Shown one piece after another: positions 26,162 to 32,317 of a stretch of DNA of 32,317 nt (the first letter of the stretch is position 1; the number at the start of each line of letters is the position of its first letter). The translations under genes and the position numbers were made by a program. Origin of the DNA: an uncultured Bacteroidia bacterium (GTDB taxonomy: Bacteria > Bacteroidota > Bacteroidia > Bacteroidales > UBA932). The notes below the pieces were generated by a model. It was not told where the DNA came from. It ran no database searches and was given only the letters and a program-made list of their open reading frames with translations. The stretch spans positions 1 through 32,317 of the forward strand of contig CACZXH010000022.1 of the NCBI GenBank assembly GCA_902785065.1, written 5' to 3'.

Positions 26162-26757
26162 CTATACGAGTTGATTGACAGCGTTTTCTATTTCTTCCTT
26201 CCGGTCTTCCGGCGTGACGGCCGCAAGGAAGGAAATCATTTGCAGGACCTTCGCCTCGGTCTCCGGGACGCCGCGGGTGCGCATGTAGAACAGCGCATCC
26301 TCGTCCAGGCGGCCGGTGGTGGCCCCGTGCGAGCATTTCACGTCGTCGGCATAGATTTCCAACTGCGGGGTCGTTTCCACGCGGGCACCTTCCGACAGGA
26401 CGATGTTGTGGTTCTCCTGGTAGGCTTCCGTCTGCTGGGCGTCCGGAGCCACGATGATACGGCCGTCGAAGGTCACCCGGGAAGTGCCGCCCGCGATGCC
26501 GTTAAACAACTGGTGCGATACGCAGCCGCCAGCGCGGTGATGCATCAGGATATGGAAATTGACCCGCTCTTCGCCCCCGCACAGATACAACCCCTTCAAG
26601 GACACCTCCGCCCCTTCGCCCACCAGGTCGATGGCGACATCGATGTCGCGGGACTCCCCGGGCAGCACCACGAACGTCAGTTCGAGCTTCTCCCCCGCCC
26701 CGACAGTGTAGTCGGGCCGGCGGCCGACGAAAGGATCTATGTAATTACCGTACCCCA

Positions 26758-26758
<1 letters not shown>
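26162..26758 (-). CDS. sufD: SufD-like Fe-S cluster assembly scaffold subunit, short form
   Basis: A 198-residue protein matching the beta-helix core and C-terminal end of SufD (usually about 430-450 residues). The core is recognisable by repeated strands (GGEERVNFHILMHHRAGGCV, TFDGRIIVAPDAQQTEAYQE). The conserved C-terminal block YADDVKCSHGATTGRLDEDA includes the His used at the SufB-SufD interface, and the C-terminal helices end in EEIENAVNQLV. The N-terminal helical half is missing, and the ATG overlaps the sufC stop as TGATG, so there is no room for the lost part in front. It would pair with SufB and SufC in the cytosolic SufBCD scaffold. Either a genuine short form or a truncated lineage variant; the reading frame is intact. 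Confidence 0.85.
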
Positions 26759-27493
<735 letters not shown>

Positions 27494-27501
<8 letters not shown>

Positions 27502-28126
27502 TTTTCTTGTACAGTTTCATCCAGGAATACAGCGACCACAGGCCATTCACCAGGTACAGGCCGCAGACGATGGGCATGAACACGTTCCCCACGCTGATGT
27601 GGAGAATGATCTGGGTGATGTTCACGATGAGCCAGGCCATCCAGCAGTCCCACTTCTTGAGCGCCGACAAGAGCTGCGCCGTGAGGATCAGGACCGTCAC
27701 GCAGCAGTCCAGGTACGGGGCCGGATTGGCCGGGAAGAACGTCTTCATCACCCAGCCCCAGAGCAGGGCGATGACGAGGATCGCCGCGACGGTGAATCCC
27801 CGCTGCGGCCAGGTCAGCATGCTGACTTTCAACTTGTTCGCATCCTCGGAAGAGCGTTCCTCCTCCTTCGGATGCGTCCAGCGCCAATGGCCGAACACGT
27901 TGATCGCGAGGGAAATGGGTTGGAGCAACAGGTTCGCGTACAGGTTCCGGGACCAGAACAGGAAGAACAAGGCGGCCGTGTACAGGTAGCCCACCCAGAA
28001 ATTGTACTTCGAGTTCCGTCCGGCGAGGAAAACGCAGGTCAGGCCCAGCAGCGAACTGATGAAATCCACCAGCAGCACCGGCTTCCCGCCCAGGGTAAAA
28101 ATTACGATATCAAGCCATTCCATCAT
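27494..28126 (-). CDS. pnuC: PnuC-family vitamin/nicotinamide riboside transporter inside the suf operon
   Basis: A 210-residue inner-membrane protein with about seven hydrophobic helices. The sequence around [20 protein letters not shown] and [20 protein letters not shown] matches the PnuC family, whose members import nicotinamide riboside (PnuC), thiamine (PnuT) or riboflavin (PnuX) by facilitated diffusion. The C-terminal half carries further helices ([38 protein letters not shown]). The ATG overlaps the sufB stop by 4 bases and its 3' end overlaps sufC by 8, so it is firmly part of the suf transcript. I see no TPP or FMN riboswitch upstream to hint at thiamine or riboflavin, so the substrate is open; nicotinamide riboside is the default guess. 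The symbol names the family only. Confidence 0.85.
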
Positions 28127-29478
28127 CCGACCGATCCTTCAAGTGACACTTGCAAAAGTTTCTGCGCCTCCACCGCGAACTCCATCGGGAGGCGGGAGAG
28201 GACTTCGCGCGCATAGCCGTTGACAATCAGGCCCACCGCCTCTTCCGGGCCGATGCCGCGCTGGTTGCAGTAGAACAGCTGGTCCTCGCTGATCTTCGAG
28301 GTCGTCGCCTCATGCTCGACGATGGCCGTCGGGTTGTCGGAGCGGATGACCGGGAAGGTATGGGCCCCGCACTGGGAGCCGATCAGGAGGCTGTCGCACT
28401 GCGAATAGTTGCGGGCGTTCTTCTTCCGGCCGATATGGATCATCTTCGTGCCCGTGTCGGCCTGCTGGTAGTTGTTCGTGACCGCGACGGAATAGAATTC
28501 CGAGGCGGTGTTGTCGCCCTTCAGGATGGTGGACGGGTACTTCCAGGTGATGGCGGAGCCCGTTTCCACCTGGGTCCAGCTCAGGTGCGCCCCGTCGCCC
28601 TTGCAGATACCGCGCTTGGTGACGAGGTTCAGGATGCCGCCCTTGCCGTCCGCATCGCCGGGATACCAGTTCTGGACGGTGGAATACTTGACATCGGCAT
28701 CCTTTTCCACGATGATTTCCACCACCGCGGCGTGGAGCTGCTGCTCGTCGCGCATCGGTGCGGTGCAGCCCTCCATATAGCTTACGAAGGAGCCCTCATC
28801 GGCCACGATGAGCGTGCGTTCGAACTGGCCGGTGCCTTTCGCGTTGATCCGGAAATAACTCGACAGGTCCATCGGGCAGCGCACTCCCTTCGGGATGTAG
28901 CAGAAAGAACCATCGGAGAACACGGCGCTGTTCAGGGCCGCGAAGTAGTTGTCGCCGGCGGGGACCACCGTGGCGAGATACTTCCGCACCAGGTCCGGGT
29001 GCTCCCGCACCGCCTCGGAGAACGAGCAGAAAATGATACCCTTCTCCGCGAGCGTCTTGCGGAAGGTCGTCGTGACGGACACCGAGTCGAAGACGGCATC
29101 GACGGCGACCACGCCGGCGAGCACGTCGCGCTCCTTGAGGGGAATGCCCAGTTTCTCGAAGGTCTCGGCCAGCTTCGGGTCGATCTCCTTCGGCCGGTCC
29201 TTGTCCTTCTTGGGAGCAGCATAGTAGATGATGTCCTGGAAGTCGATTTCGGGCAGGTCCAGATGGGGCCAGCGGGGCATTTCCATCGCCTGCCATTTGC
29301 GGAACGCGTCCAGGCGGAACTCCAGGAGCCAGTCCGGCTCCTCCTTGAGCCGGGAAATGGTACGGATAATGTCCTCGTTCAGGCCCTTGGGAACGAATTC
29401 CTGTTCCACGTCGGTCACGAAGCCTTCCTTGTACTCCCCGGAGGTGAATTCCTGTATGATTCTGTCGTTTTCGGCCAT
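28123..29478 (-). CDS. sufB: Fe-S cluster assembly protein SufB
   Basis: A 451-residue SufB, the scaffold subunit on which the SufBCD complex builds [Fe-S] clusters in the cytosol. Family motifs include [80 protein letters not shown] and the C-terminal block [20 protein letters not shown]. Length is close to the usual 460-490. It is the first gene of the suf operon and is preceded by a -7 element about 30 bases upstream. SufS and a SufE/SufU sulfur carrier are not in the window, so sulfur delivery must be encoded elsewhere. Confidence 0.97.
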
Positions 29479-29541: not shown

Positions 29542-30645
29542 TTACACCTTGAGGAAAACTTTGTGCCGGTACAGGAAGTACAGCAGGAGCCAGCAGACGG
29601 CGATGTAGCCCACGGCCAGCAGAACGGCGCCCCAGGCTTCCGGCAGGAGCGCGGCTGTACCGCCCAGGAAGAAGTTGGCGACTTCCCGCAAGGGGACGAT
29701 CTGCTGCAGCAGGTAGATGGTGATGGAGTTCAGGCCGATGACGCGGAAGAAGAAGGTCCATTCCGTATGGCCCTTCACCTCCACGATGTAATACACAATC
29801 GCGTACAGGGCGATGGAGATGCCGCCGACCACCAGGACGAAAGTGCTGGTCCAAAGCTTCTTGTTCAAGGGCAGCGATAGGCTCCAGAGCAGGCCGATGG
29901 CGATAAGTACGGCCGAGGCGCACAGCATCAGGAGGGTCTTCTTCCCGCCGCTGTATTTTTCTTCGGGCAGGCGGATGAATTCGCCCGTGAACATACCCAG
30001 CATCGCCGTCACCGTGGCGGGAATGACGCCCAGCAGGCCTTCCGGATCGAAGTTTCCGTAGTAAGGCTTGCCGGGCAGGAGGATCCGGTCGACCCAGCCG
30101 CTCAGGCAACCGTCCTGCGTGAGCGGGCCAGCACCGACAGGGGCGTCGGGGGCGCCGACGAAGGTAATAAGAAGGCCATAGCCGACAAGCAAAACCGTGG
30201 CGATGACGATCCGGGCCTTTGACTTACAATGGACATATAACAGCGCAGCGAACATCCACGCGAGGCCGATGCGGGCCAGTACGCTGGCGTACCGCTGCGG
30301 GAATTGCAGGTTGAAGAAACCGTTATAGACGAGGCCCAACGCAATGAGCACGAGGCAGCGGACGAAGATTTTCCGGTGAATCTCCCAGGACGTTCGTCCC
30401 TTCTCCAACTGGCTTGCATAGGAGAACGGGAAGGAAAGTCCCGCAATGAACAGGAACACCGGGAAGACCATGTCCATGATGGCCAAGCCGTTCCATTCCA
30501 CGTGGCTCATCTGCCGGGCAAGCCAGAAATCCGATCCGCCGGGAAACAAGTTGCAGAGGCTGACGATCAGGGAGGACAGGCCCATGATCAGCAGCATGTC
30601 CATCCCCCGCAGGGTGTCGATGGAAAGCAGGCGTTTCTTGTCCAT
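29542..30645 (-). CDS. DUF5009/HGSNAT-like integral membrane acyltransferase
   Basis: A 367-residue inner-membrane protein with about ten hydrophobic helices. The N-terminus RLLSIDTLRGMDMLLIMGLS carries the (S/D)xxRG motif common to DUF5009 proteins and the heparan-alpha-glucosaminide N-acetyltransferase (HGSNAT/NagX) family. These move acetyl groups from acetyl-CoA across the membrane onto sugars. A conserved-looking inner His (QMSHVEWNGL) is a plausible acyl carrier, and the C-terminus has FRVIGLNSITIYLLQQI. The ATG at 30645 is chosen because it overlaps the aroC stop as TAATG; reading farther upstream would enter aroC out of frame. Its place behind aroA-aroC gives no clear clue to its substrate. 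Confidence 0.82.
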   Translation of the reverse strand: MDKKRLLSIDTLRGMDMLLIMGLSSLIVSLCNLFPGGSDFWLARQMSHVEWNGLAIMDMVFPVFLFIAGLSFPFSYASQLEKGRTSWEIHRKIFVRCLVLIALGLVYNGFFNLQFPQRYASVLARIGLAWMFAALLYVHCKSKARIVIATVLLVGYGLLITFVGAPDAPVGAGPLTQDGCLSGWVDRILLPGKPYYGNFDPEGLLGVIPATVTAMLGMFTGEFIRLPEEKYSGGKKTLLMLCASAVLIAIGLLWSLSLPLNKKLWTSTFVLVVGGISIALYAIVYYIVEVKGHTEWTFFFRVIGLNSITIYLLQQIVPLREVANFFLGGTAALLPEAWGAVLLAVGYIAVCWLLLYFLYRHKVFLKV

Positions 30646-31841
30646 TACGCCATGCCGACAAGGTCTGCGAGAACGATGGCTGCCATGGCCTCCACAATGA
30701 CCGGCGTACGCAGGGCGAAGCAGGTGTCGTGACGGCCGGGGACCTGCAGGGACGTCATCTCGCCCTTGGCGAAATCGTACGTCTCCTGAGCCTTGGCTAT
30801 GCTGGAGGTCGGTTTGAAAGCGACGCGGAACACCAGCGGATTGCCGTTGGTGATGCCGCCGTTCACGCCGCCGGCGTGATTCGTGGCGGGCGTCACCAGA
30901 CGGTTCCGGTGGTGGCCGCAGCAGCCGCCCTCGTGGTGACCTTCGCCACCATGGCAGCATCCGCCTTCGTGGTCATGCTCTTCACCGCCGTGGCAGCAGC
31001 CCTCGCCTTCACCGTGCTCATGGCAACAGCCTTCGTGGTCGGCACCGTGCTCGTGGCAACCGCCGTGACCGTGGCCGCCGCAGCCGGCGGGAGCGTACAC
31101 GTCGTTGTGCTCGGAACCTTTCATCCGGGCGGCGGCGAAGCCGTCGCCGAACTCCACGCCGCGGACGCCGGGAATGGCGAAGAGGGCGTGCGAGAGGCGG
31201 GATTCCACGCTGTCCCAGAAGGGCTCTCCGAGCCCGGCGGGAACGCCGGAAACGACGCACTCCACGACGCCGCCCAGCGAATCTCCTTCCTTCTGTGCCT
31301 GGTCCAAAGCGGCATCCCACTGCGCCGGGTCGGCGATTCCGCCGATTTCGACGAGCTTAGCGTCACAGCGGAACTGGACGCGGCCGCGGGTGGCGCCGGC
31401 GATGGTCGCGAAGAGCAGTTTCTTCGCGATAACGCCGGCGGCGACGACCGGGAGCGTCAGGCGGCCGGAGAAATGGCCGCCGCCGCGCGGATCCTGGAAG
31501 CCGCCGTACTTGAGGTTCGCGGTATAGTCCGCATGGCCGGGGCGCGGGACGTTCAGCAGCGCCTCGTAATCCTGGCTATGGGTGTTCGTATTGTGGAAGA
31601 CGATAGCGAGCGGAGCGCCGGTCGTATAGCCTTCATAGACGCCGCTGAGGATCTGCGGCTCATCGGCCTCCACGCGCGGGGTCGTGCCCTTCGCGCCGCT
31701 CCGGCGGCGGGCGATATCCGCCGCAAAATCCGCCTCGCTGAGCGGGATGCCCGGCGCGAGGCCGTCCACGACCACGCCGATCTGCTCTCCGTGCGATTCG
31801 CCGAAGATACTTACTCTGAATATGTTACCAAAAGCGTTCAT
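30645..31841 (-). CDS. aroC: Chorismate synthase with a His/Cys-rich insertion
   Basis: A 398-residue chorismate synthase, which converts EPSP to chorismate using reduced FMN, the last shared step of aromatic amino acid, folate and quinone synthesis. Motifs seen: FGESHG with the catalytic His 17, RRRSGA (46-51), GHADYTANLKYGGFQDPRGG (102-121), HFSGRLT (123-129), GSEHND (242-247), TNHAGGVNGGITNG (320-333) and FKPTSSI (342-348). Between GSEHND and TNHAGG, where bacterial enzymes usually have only a short variable loop, residues about 250-314 are mostly Gly, His, Glu and Cys with 15 His and 10 Cys. It overlaps aroA by 4 bases (ATGA) and the DUF5009-type gene by 1. The core motifs are complete, so catalysis is expected to be retained. 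Confidence 0.95.
   Translation of the reverse strand: MNAFGNIFRVSIFGESHGEQIGVVVDGLAPGIPLSEADFAADIARRRSGAKGTTPRVEADEPQILSGVYEGYTTGAPLAIVFHNTNTHSQDYEALLNVPRPGHADYTANLKYGGFQDPRGGGHFSGRLTLPVVAAGVIAKKLLFATIAGATRGRVQFRCDAKLVEIGGIADPAQWDAALDQAQKEGDSLGGVVECVVSGVPAGLGEPFWDSVESRLSHALFAIPGVRGVEFGDGFAAARMKGSEHNDVYAPAGCGGHGHGGCHEHGADHEGCCHEHGEGEGCCHGGEEHDHEGGCCHGGEGHHEGGCCGHHRNRLVTPATNHAGGVNGGITNGNPLVFRVAFKPTSSIAKAQETYDFAKGEMTSLQVPGRHDTCFALRTPVIVEAMAAIVLADLVGMA
30905..31085 (-). repeat. Imperfect internal repeats coding for the His/Cys-rich loop in aroC
   Basis: The DNA contains several imperfect repeats of a unit coding for HEGGCCHGGEG-like peptide; words such as ccttcgtggt and ccgtggcagca recur at 30960-31060. 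The frame is kept throughout. It probably grew by slippage of a short GC-rich unit. Confidence 0.6.
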
Positions 31842-32317
31842 AGTTTGTCAAATAAGTCGTTGAAACCGGGGAAGGATTTGGCGACACAAGCCGTGTCGTC
31901 GATGTCCACGGGGCCATCCGCACCGAGTGCGGCCACCTTGAGCGCCATCACCATCCGGTGATCGGCGTGAGAAGTATACCGGCCGCCCTTCAACAGGTTG
32001 CCAGTGAGGAGACGCTGCGGGAGCGCCATGCCTTCGATGGTCATTTCGTCCTCATCGACCTGGACGGGAACGCCCATCTGCGTGAGCATGTCCACGATCG
32101 CGGCGGCACGGTCGGTCTCCTTGTGGCGGAGGCGCTCCACGCCGCGGATACGGCTCTCGCCCGGGCAGAAGGCAGCCAGCACGGCCACGATCGGGAAGAG
32201 GTCCGGGCAGTTGTTCAGGTCGGTTTCGAAGGCGCAGAGCGGCGCGCGGGCCACATGGATGGGCCCGGTCGTGGGCGTGTCGCCTTCCAGCTGGGACATG
32301 CTCGCCCCGGCGTCCAT
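31838..32317 (-). CDS. aroA: 3-phosphoshikimate 1-carboxyvinyltransferase (EPSP synthase), C-terminal part (cut by window edge)
   Basis: The last 159 codons of EPSP synthase, which joins shikimate-3-phosphate and phosphoenolpyruvate just before chorismate synthase. Visible active-site segments are DLNNCPDLFPIVAVLAAFCP, with the catalytic Asp of CPDLFP, then VERLRHKETDRA with the Lys-Glu pair and Arg, and YTSHADHRMVMALKVAALGA. The ending DTACVAKSFPGFNDLFDKL is typical. Full EPSP synthases have about 410-430 residues, so the N-terminal two-thirds lie beyond the right edge. An ATG happens to sit exactly at the window end (32317) but is an internal Met. The stop overlaps the aroC start (ATGA). 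Confidence 0.95.
   Translation of the reverse strand: MDAGASMSQLEGDTPTTGPIHVARAPLCAFETDLNNCPDLFPIVAVLAAFCPGESRIRGVERLRHKETDRAAAIVDMLTQMGVPVQVDEDEMTIEGMALPQRLLTGNLLKGGRYTSHADHRMVMALKVAALGADGPVDIDDTACVAKSFPGFNDLFDKL

Follow-up and report, generated by a model that had tools for sequence, protein, structure and literature searches.

The chorismate synthase locus

The window, by which we mean the whole stretch of 32,317 nucleotides analysed here, is contig 22 of a 2.74 Mb genome assembled in 50 contigs. It carries a complete gene for chorismate synthase (AroC) together with the following features.

30645..31841, minus strand: aroC, chorismate synthase, 398 aa, complete (open frame, translation, Pfam, NCBIfam)
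31101..31118, minus strand: GSEHND motif, left flank of the loop, residues 242-247 (alignment of 54 picked AroC)
30882..31100, minus strand: enlarged loop between GSEHND and NHAGG, residues 248-320, 73 aa
30903..31085, minus strand: His/Cys/Gly/Glu-rich tract within the loop, residues 253-313, 61 aa (composition)
30867..30881, minus strand: NHAGG motif, right flank of the loop, residues 321-325 (alignment of 54 picked AroC)
31838..32317, minus strand: aroA (EPSP synthase), C-terminal part (PF00275, 111.7 bits)
28123-29478: sufB
27494-28126: gene for a pnuC-like nicotinamide mononucleotide transporter
26758-27501: gene for a sufC-like ABC ATPase

The aroA gene lies directly upstream of aroC and overlaps its start by 4 bases. 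Downstream of aroC, an open reading frame (MDKKRLLSIDTLRG...) can start at 30645, giving a one-base overlap with the aroC stop (window:30643-30647); this frame has no Pfam match at E 0.001. Since its possible start overlaps the aroC stop, aroA, aroC and the downstream frame look like one operon. Elsewhere in the window, the pnuC-like gene sits between sufB and the sufC-like gene and overlaps both (window:26758-29478), and a frame of 198 aa next to the sufC-like gene, at 26162-26758, is putatively a short SufD.

The window AroC scores 380.3 bits against PF01264 (Pfam; cut-off 27), 356.5 against the NCBIfam equivalog PRK05382 (cut-off 321) and 335.5 against TIGR00033 (cut-off 212.2). Its score for PRK12463, 114.2, is under that model's cut-off of 799. 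It is also the single PF01264 match in its genome. The original prediction had called the enzyme complete apart from its loop, and the full-length frame and the passed PF01264 and PRK05382 models bear this out. Across an alignment of 54 picked AroC sequences, H17, R46 and D372 are invariant and H103 is nearly so; all four, which we take to be catalytic or FMN-site positions, are present in the window protein. The two motifs that flank the loop are similarly well kept: G242, S243, H245 and D247 of GSEHND and N321 and G325 of NHAGG are invariant in the same alignment, while E244, N246, A323 and G324 are nearly invariant. FMN contacts presumably lie near the NHAGG motif. An AlphaFold model based on the 54-row alignment reached a pTM of 0.83 and a mean pLDDT of 84.4, with a confident core (254 residues at a pLDDT of 90 or above), and all 28 of its PDB matches at E <= 0.001 are chorismate synthases. 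By sequence and predicted fold, the protein, loop apart, looks like an ordinary and functional chorismate synthase.

A His/Cys-rich tract in the loop

The loop between the two motifs has a median length of 11 residues (range 6-22) and an H+C content of 3% in the 145 AroC rows that we class as short-looped. At 73 aa, the window loop is therefore longer by about 62 residues. Its tract contains 15 H, 10 C, 21 G and 10 E in 61 residues, so that 25/61 are H or C (binomial P 4e-20 against the core's own H+C frequency of 3.7%). An insertion of about 60 residues with 15 His and 10 Cys had been predicted at 30905-31090; the count is exact over residues 253-313, and the coordinates were right to a few bases.

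AlphaFold assigns residues 253-312 a pLDDT below 50, i.e. no confident structure, and the modelled tract is probably a disordered, floppy loop. Searched against solved structures, the tract gave no sequence match, as a low-complexity query that is hard to match anyway.

Distribution within and beyond the genus

Our genus sample comprised 200 genomes, with an AroC match in 185 and none in 15. The loop was read in 130 of the 185, the other 55 falling outside the reading, and is His/Cys-rich in 23 of these 130, a count that includes the window and one genome with an in-frame stop. For comparisons between sequences, 210 loci were reduced to 174 rows with distinct cores. At ten loci the motif filter yielded no AroC (L014, whose tract contains a stop, and nine short-loop loci), five were dropped that had no recognisable motif pair and no long insert, L002, the window's second copy, was excluded, and 20 identical-core rows were merged. 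The 174 rows divide into 24 with a His/Cys-rich loop, 145 with a short loop and five whose loop is long but not enriched in His/Cys. The His/Cys-rich class was defined by at least 25 residues and at least 25% H+C; no long loop falls between 5% and 33%. The original prediction had described this loop as short in bacterial chorismate synthases, which is true of most relatives read but not of the five rows with loops of 43-67 residues that are not His-rich.

Throughout the 24 His/Cys-rich tracts, which span 29-93 residues, H+C stays at 33-45%, at least one CC pair is kept and His is more numerous than Cys. The order of residues, on the other hand, differs between species. Among the relatives read, loop length runs from nearly none to 93 residues. 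In L090, L101 and L127 the loop is all but absent, with HxGG following GSEQ or GSEN within a few residues. L014 (genome G179) has an in-frame TAG within its His/Cys tract in an otherwise readable AroC; the gene may be broken, or the stop a sequencing error.

Among the His/Cys-rich rows are the named records L133 and L135. The best named matches are the metagenome-assembled Bacteroidales RUG253, RUG193 and RGIG6537, the last from sheep reticulum. More distant matches include a Candidatus Cryptobacteroides record. Going by these named matches, the tract-bearing genus would be Cryptobacteroides-like gut Bacteroidales.

At wider taxonomic range, a window-type tract was found in 3/299 genomes of the family, and the window-type tract with its flanks in 1/395 genomes of the phylum at E 1e-15, namely the window's own. 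The tract type of L010 was found in 15/200 genus genomes at E 1e-3, every match lying inside aroC, and in 0/393 genomes of the order at E 1e-4, a search without a positive control that missed the window's own genome too. As the L010 query recovered 15 genus genomes and the reading 23, tract queries miss about a third within the genus, and the negatives at order and phylum level are only indicative for this reason. As far as sampled, the tract appears lineage-specific.

Evolutionary history and possible growth of the tract

A careful tree of 44 AroC rows was calculated with the loop left out. The distribution of tract bearers on this tree needs three changes, and the well-supported forks force at least two. 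The window clade (five rows) is nested, with starred support, among the short-loop sequences L019, L134, L131 and L062. The other 19 bearers fall, together with the short-loop L038, L044, L048 and L120, into a second group, whose support of 89/83 is not starred. Two histories fit these sequences, namely at least two gains of the tract, or a single gain with several losses, inside one genus. Because short-loop species adjoin tract bearers, the tract is dispensable over evolution. The original prediction had proposed searching AroC families for the insertion and mapping it on a tree; the outcome is an insertion that is lineage-specific as sampled and that changed state at least twice within the genus.

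Two relatives carry tandem in-frame copies inside their tracts, with a 36 bp unit (98% match) in L010 and a 60 bp unit (93% match) in L011. From these copies we infer that short codon units, duplicated locally, would have built up the tract. In the window tract, an 18-bp unit gives a weak tandem signal (2.7 copies, 70% match). A GHEG stretch in the nearest short loops resembles the units of the window tract and could possibly have been its seed.

The same loop has received DNA of other kinds. Compared with its near relative L045, which has a short loop, L039 carries one clean 126-base insertion. The repeat in this insert has 33 matches, counting the one in aroC, in L039's own genome, G188, and 30 in G042, the genome of L045. 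Overall, this dispersed repeat of about 120 bp gave 21-33 matches each in G188, G071, G017, G042 and G049, five of the six genomes searched, and none in the sixth, the window genome. It is read in frame in the L039 loop, and the loops of L013 and L017 are similar in look. A second repeat of 26 bases, counted with up to two mismatches, occurs in 9/10 genomes, with three copies in the window genome and up to 97 elsewhere. It lies in frame inside the tracts of L008, L009, L016, L021 and L026, where it is translated as CHSERSEES or CHSEQSEES.

Dispersed repeats in the loop of other species indicate that the site tolerates insertions. Since it accepts foreign in-frame DNA, length alone proves no function, and the five other long loops without His/Cys enrichment likewise imply that a metal role is not required for a loop to be long. 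The window tract was considered as a dispersed repeat and rejected, as only aroC matches clearly in its genome; two further matches are weak (E 0.12 and 0.18), and both are interrupted by a stop. A second AroC loop, near residue 50 in the N-terminal third, has Ala/Gly-rich inserts in L129, L130 and L106. The His/Cys loop may therefore not be the only one in AroC that tolerates insertions.

Selection on the tract

Among close relatives (L001, L003, L004 and L135, giving six pairs; the aroC of L132 is identical to that of L003), residues 250-313 show 12-20 synonymous differences per pair against 1-3 amino-acid changes. In five of the six pairs, whole-loop pN/pS is 0.012-0.059, versus 0.013-0.062 for the core. 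When the window tract was mutated neutrally with the observed fourfold spectrum, 17 mutations yielded a mean of 11.0 amino-acid changes and a minimum of 4 in 5000 runs. Twelve pairs at greater distance have a loop pN/pS of 0.06 to 0.35, which lies above that of the core in 7/12. The tract shows strong purifying selection among close relatives, which form one small clade, with weaker evidence beyond it, and is probably not junk.

In nine pairs, H and C were kept at 137/153 aligned interior sites versus 127/170 for other residues (Fisher P 0.0008; flat scoring with no bonus for H and C, sites not strictly independent). Shuffled tracts gave 0.56 for H/C and 0.47 for other residues, so part of this excess reflects composition. 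The comparison suggests, on weaker evidence than the purifying selection, a preferential retention of His and Cys. Purifying selection on a tract whose His and Cys are kept among close relatives fits a metal-binding role. The original prediction, of a loop that could bind Zn, Ni, Cu or Fe and store it, sense it or tune the enzyme, is partly supported.

A putative metal-binding loop

With a probability of roughly 0.6, we read the tract as a selected, disordered, surface-exposed metal-binding loop on an enzyme that, this loop apart, looks like a working chorismate synthase. It is the simplest reading of the predicted disorder, the selectively kept His and Cys, the CC pairs and the HxH clusters taken together, and the SlyD tail and Helicobacter HspA would be its precedents in mode of action. 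His clusters and CC pairs would bind several metal ions of the soft or borderline class, most likely Zn, possibly Cu(I) and less likely Ni. Among 42 genus genomes, 23 of them tract-bearing and 19 tract-free, none had a match to the [NiFe]-hydrogenase large subunit (PF00374) or to urease alpha (PF00449), in searches whose controls were positive in 5 and 4 of 14, respectively. This makes nickel less likely and disfavours a link to either nickel enzyme. Zinc is our best guess, by elimination and from general ligand chemistry. The benefit might be metal buffering, or a metal-dependent stabilisation or gating of AroC near the FMN site. Long-term selection would act on composition and anchored ends, not on a fixed residue order. 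The tract's dispensability across species, the stop in L014 and the relaxed distant pairs all count against a metal loop. Selection to retain the putative metal ligands was found in a few close relatives and, more weakly (nine pairs), over longer distances.

The tract could also be explained by a redox or disulfide switch. Oxygen stress would then cause CC pairs near the FMN site to become disulfide-bonded or to give up metal, reversibly lowering the activity of the reduced-FMN enzyme, and the tract would be selected for redox sensing and not for metal storage. CC pairs in all 24 tracts and the position of the loop between family-conserved motifs agree with such a switch. So do passages of PMC7144000, which describe the enzymes of E. 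coli and plants as inactive unless conditions are anaerobic and the flavin is reduced, and of PMC7840056, whose authors ascribe multimers of purified H. pylori SlyD to disulfides of its His/Cys tail. A pure thiol switch, however, leaves the excess of His over Cys in every tract unexplained, and we consider it a doubtful alternative. An acidic, His-rich disordered loop that serves solubility, tetramer spacing or partner contact, with metal binding incidental, would suit the Glu/Gly-rich composition, the predicted disorder and the residue order that is not conserved between species. Yet no residues are kept as well as H and C, and many paired cysteines are unusual for a solubility linker, which makes this role unlikely.

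Nearly neutral growth of a low-complexity sequence, by slippage or repeat insertion into a tolerant loop, could have left a harmless His/Cys-rich stretch. This would account for the five of 174 rows that are long without His/Cys enrichment, for the dispersed repeat that separates L039 from L045 by 126 bases, for the translated repeat in five His/Cys tracts and for the relaxed loop pN/pS of several distant pairs. It is at odds with the strong purifying selection among close relatives, which already disfavours it, with the better retention of H and C, and with an H+C content held at 33-45% over lengths of 29-93 residues; we judge it improbable. Repetitive GC-rich DNA is prone to misassembly, and the stop inside the L014 tract might hint at an assembly or frameshift artefact. 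The original prediction had named loop-less close relatives, with reads exposing an artefact, as grounds for abandoning the insertion; L019, L134 and L131 do lack it, yet many separate assemblies have it. The frame is open in 24 distinct-core rows, and the tracts of close relatives differ almost only synonymously, which is not expected of misassembly. Separately assembled tract-bearing genomes and these synonymous differences rule the artefact out.

Going beyond metal binding as such, the AroC of this clade might have become metal-responsive via a disordered His/Cys loop, repeatedly evolved at an insertion-tolerant position close to the FMN pocket, coupling the last shikimate step to Zn/Cu or redox. 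We regard this as speculative and rather unlikely. If true, aromatic amino acids, folate and menaquinone would be tied to the redox state or to free metal (zinc or copper). More generally, the case suggests selection on composition, not order, in a loop that is filled by dispersed repeats elsewhere. Selection at the level of composition in a repeat-accepting loop would amount to a natural experiment on the origin of binding segments inside a central enzyme. As tract-bearing and tract-free sister species both exist, the function of the loop is directly testable.

Comparison with known systems

The window AroC shares with the chorismate synthase family (AroC, PF01264, PRK05382) its core, conserved motifs, predicted fold and place beside aroA. 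It differs by the additional His/Cys-rich loop residues (about 62), which lie outside the family models. Metal-storing or metal-sensing appendages rich in His and Cys are known on chaperones and metallochaperones, but we know of no precedent on chorismate synthase. In the open-access full text searched, we found no His/Cys-rich appendage described on this enzyme and no paper on the position of this loop relative to FMN.

The in-frame dispersed repeats of the L039 loop and of part of five tracts are reminiscent of the Rickettsia palindromic elements, which are described in a passage of PMC10969869 as inserted in frame in genes. The window tract differs in having no other clear copy in its genome, and we claim no homology.

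In composition, the tract resembles the C-terminal tail of SlyD, a prolyl isomerase. In E. coli this tail has 13 His and 6 Cys and binds up to 7 Ni, according to an excerpt of PMC7840056. Both segments are rich in His, Cys and acidic residues and vary in length between species. Whereas the SlyD segment is a C-terminal tail, the AroC tract is internal and belongs to a metabolic enzyme, and homology is again not claimed. FKBP-family genes gave four matches in the window genome.

The His/Cys-rich extension of Helicobacter HspA (GroES), a nickel sequestration domain described in parts of PMC7840056 and PMC4671568 as absent from other bacteria, is likewise a lineage-specific appendage on a housekeeping protein. 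According to the same sources, the HspA extension sits at the C-terminus and has a role in sequestering nickel and in maturing hydrogenase, whereas the 42 genomes of the AroC genus have no [NiFe]-hydrogenase or urease match. The dense His and Cys in a flexible segment that characterise SlyD and HspA are present in the AroC tract as well (25/61 residues, pLDDT below 50). The tract is real, constrained and undescribed in the open-access full text searched, and it places a known type of appendage on a host enzyme for which we know of no precedent.
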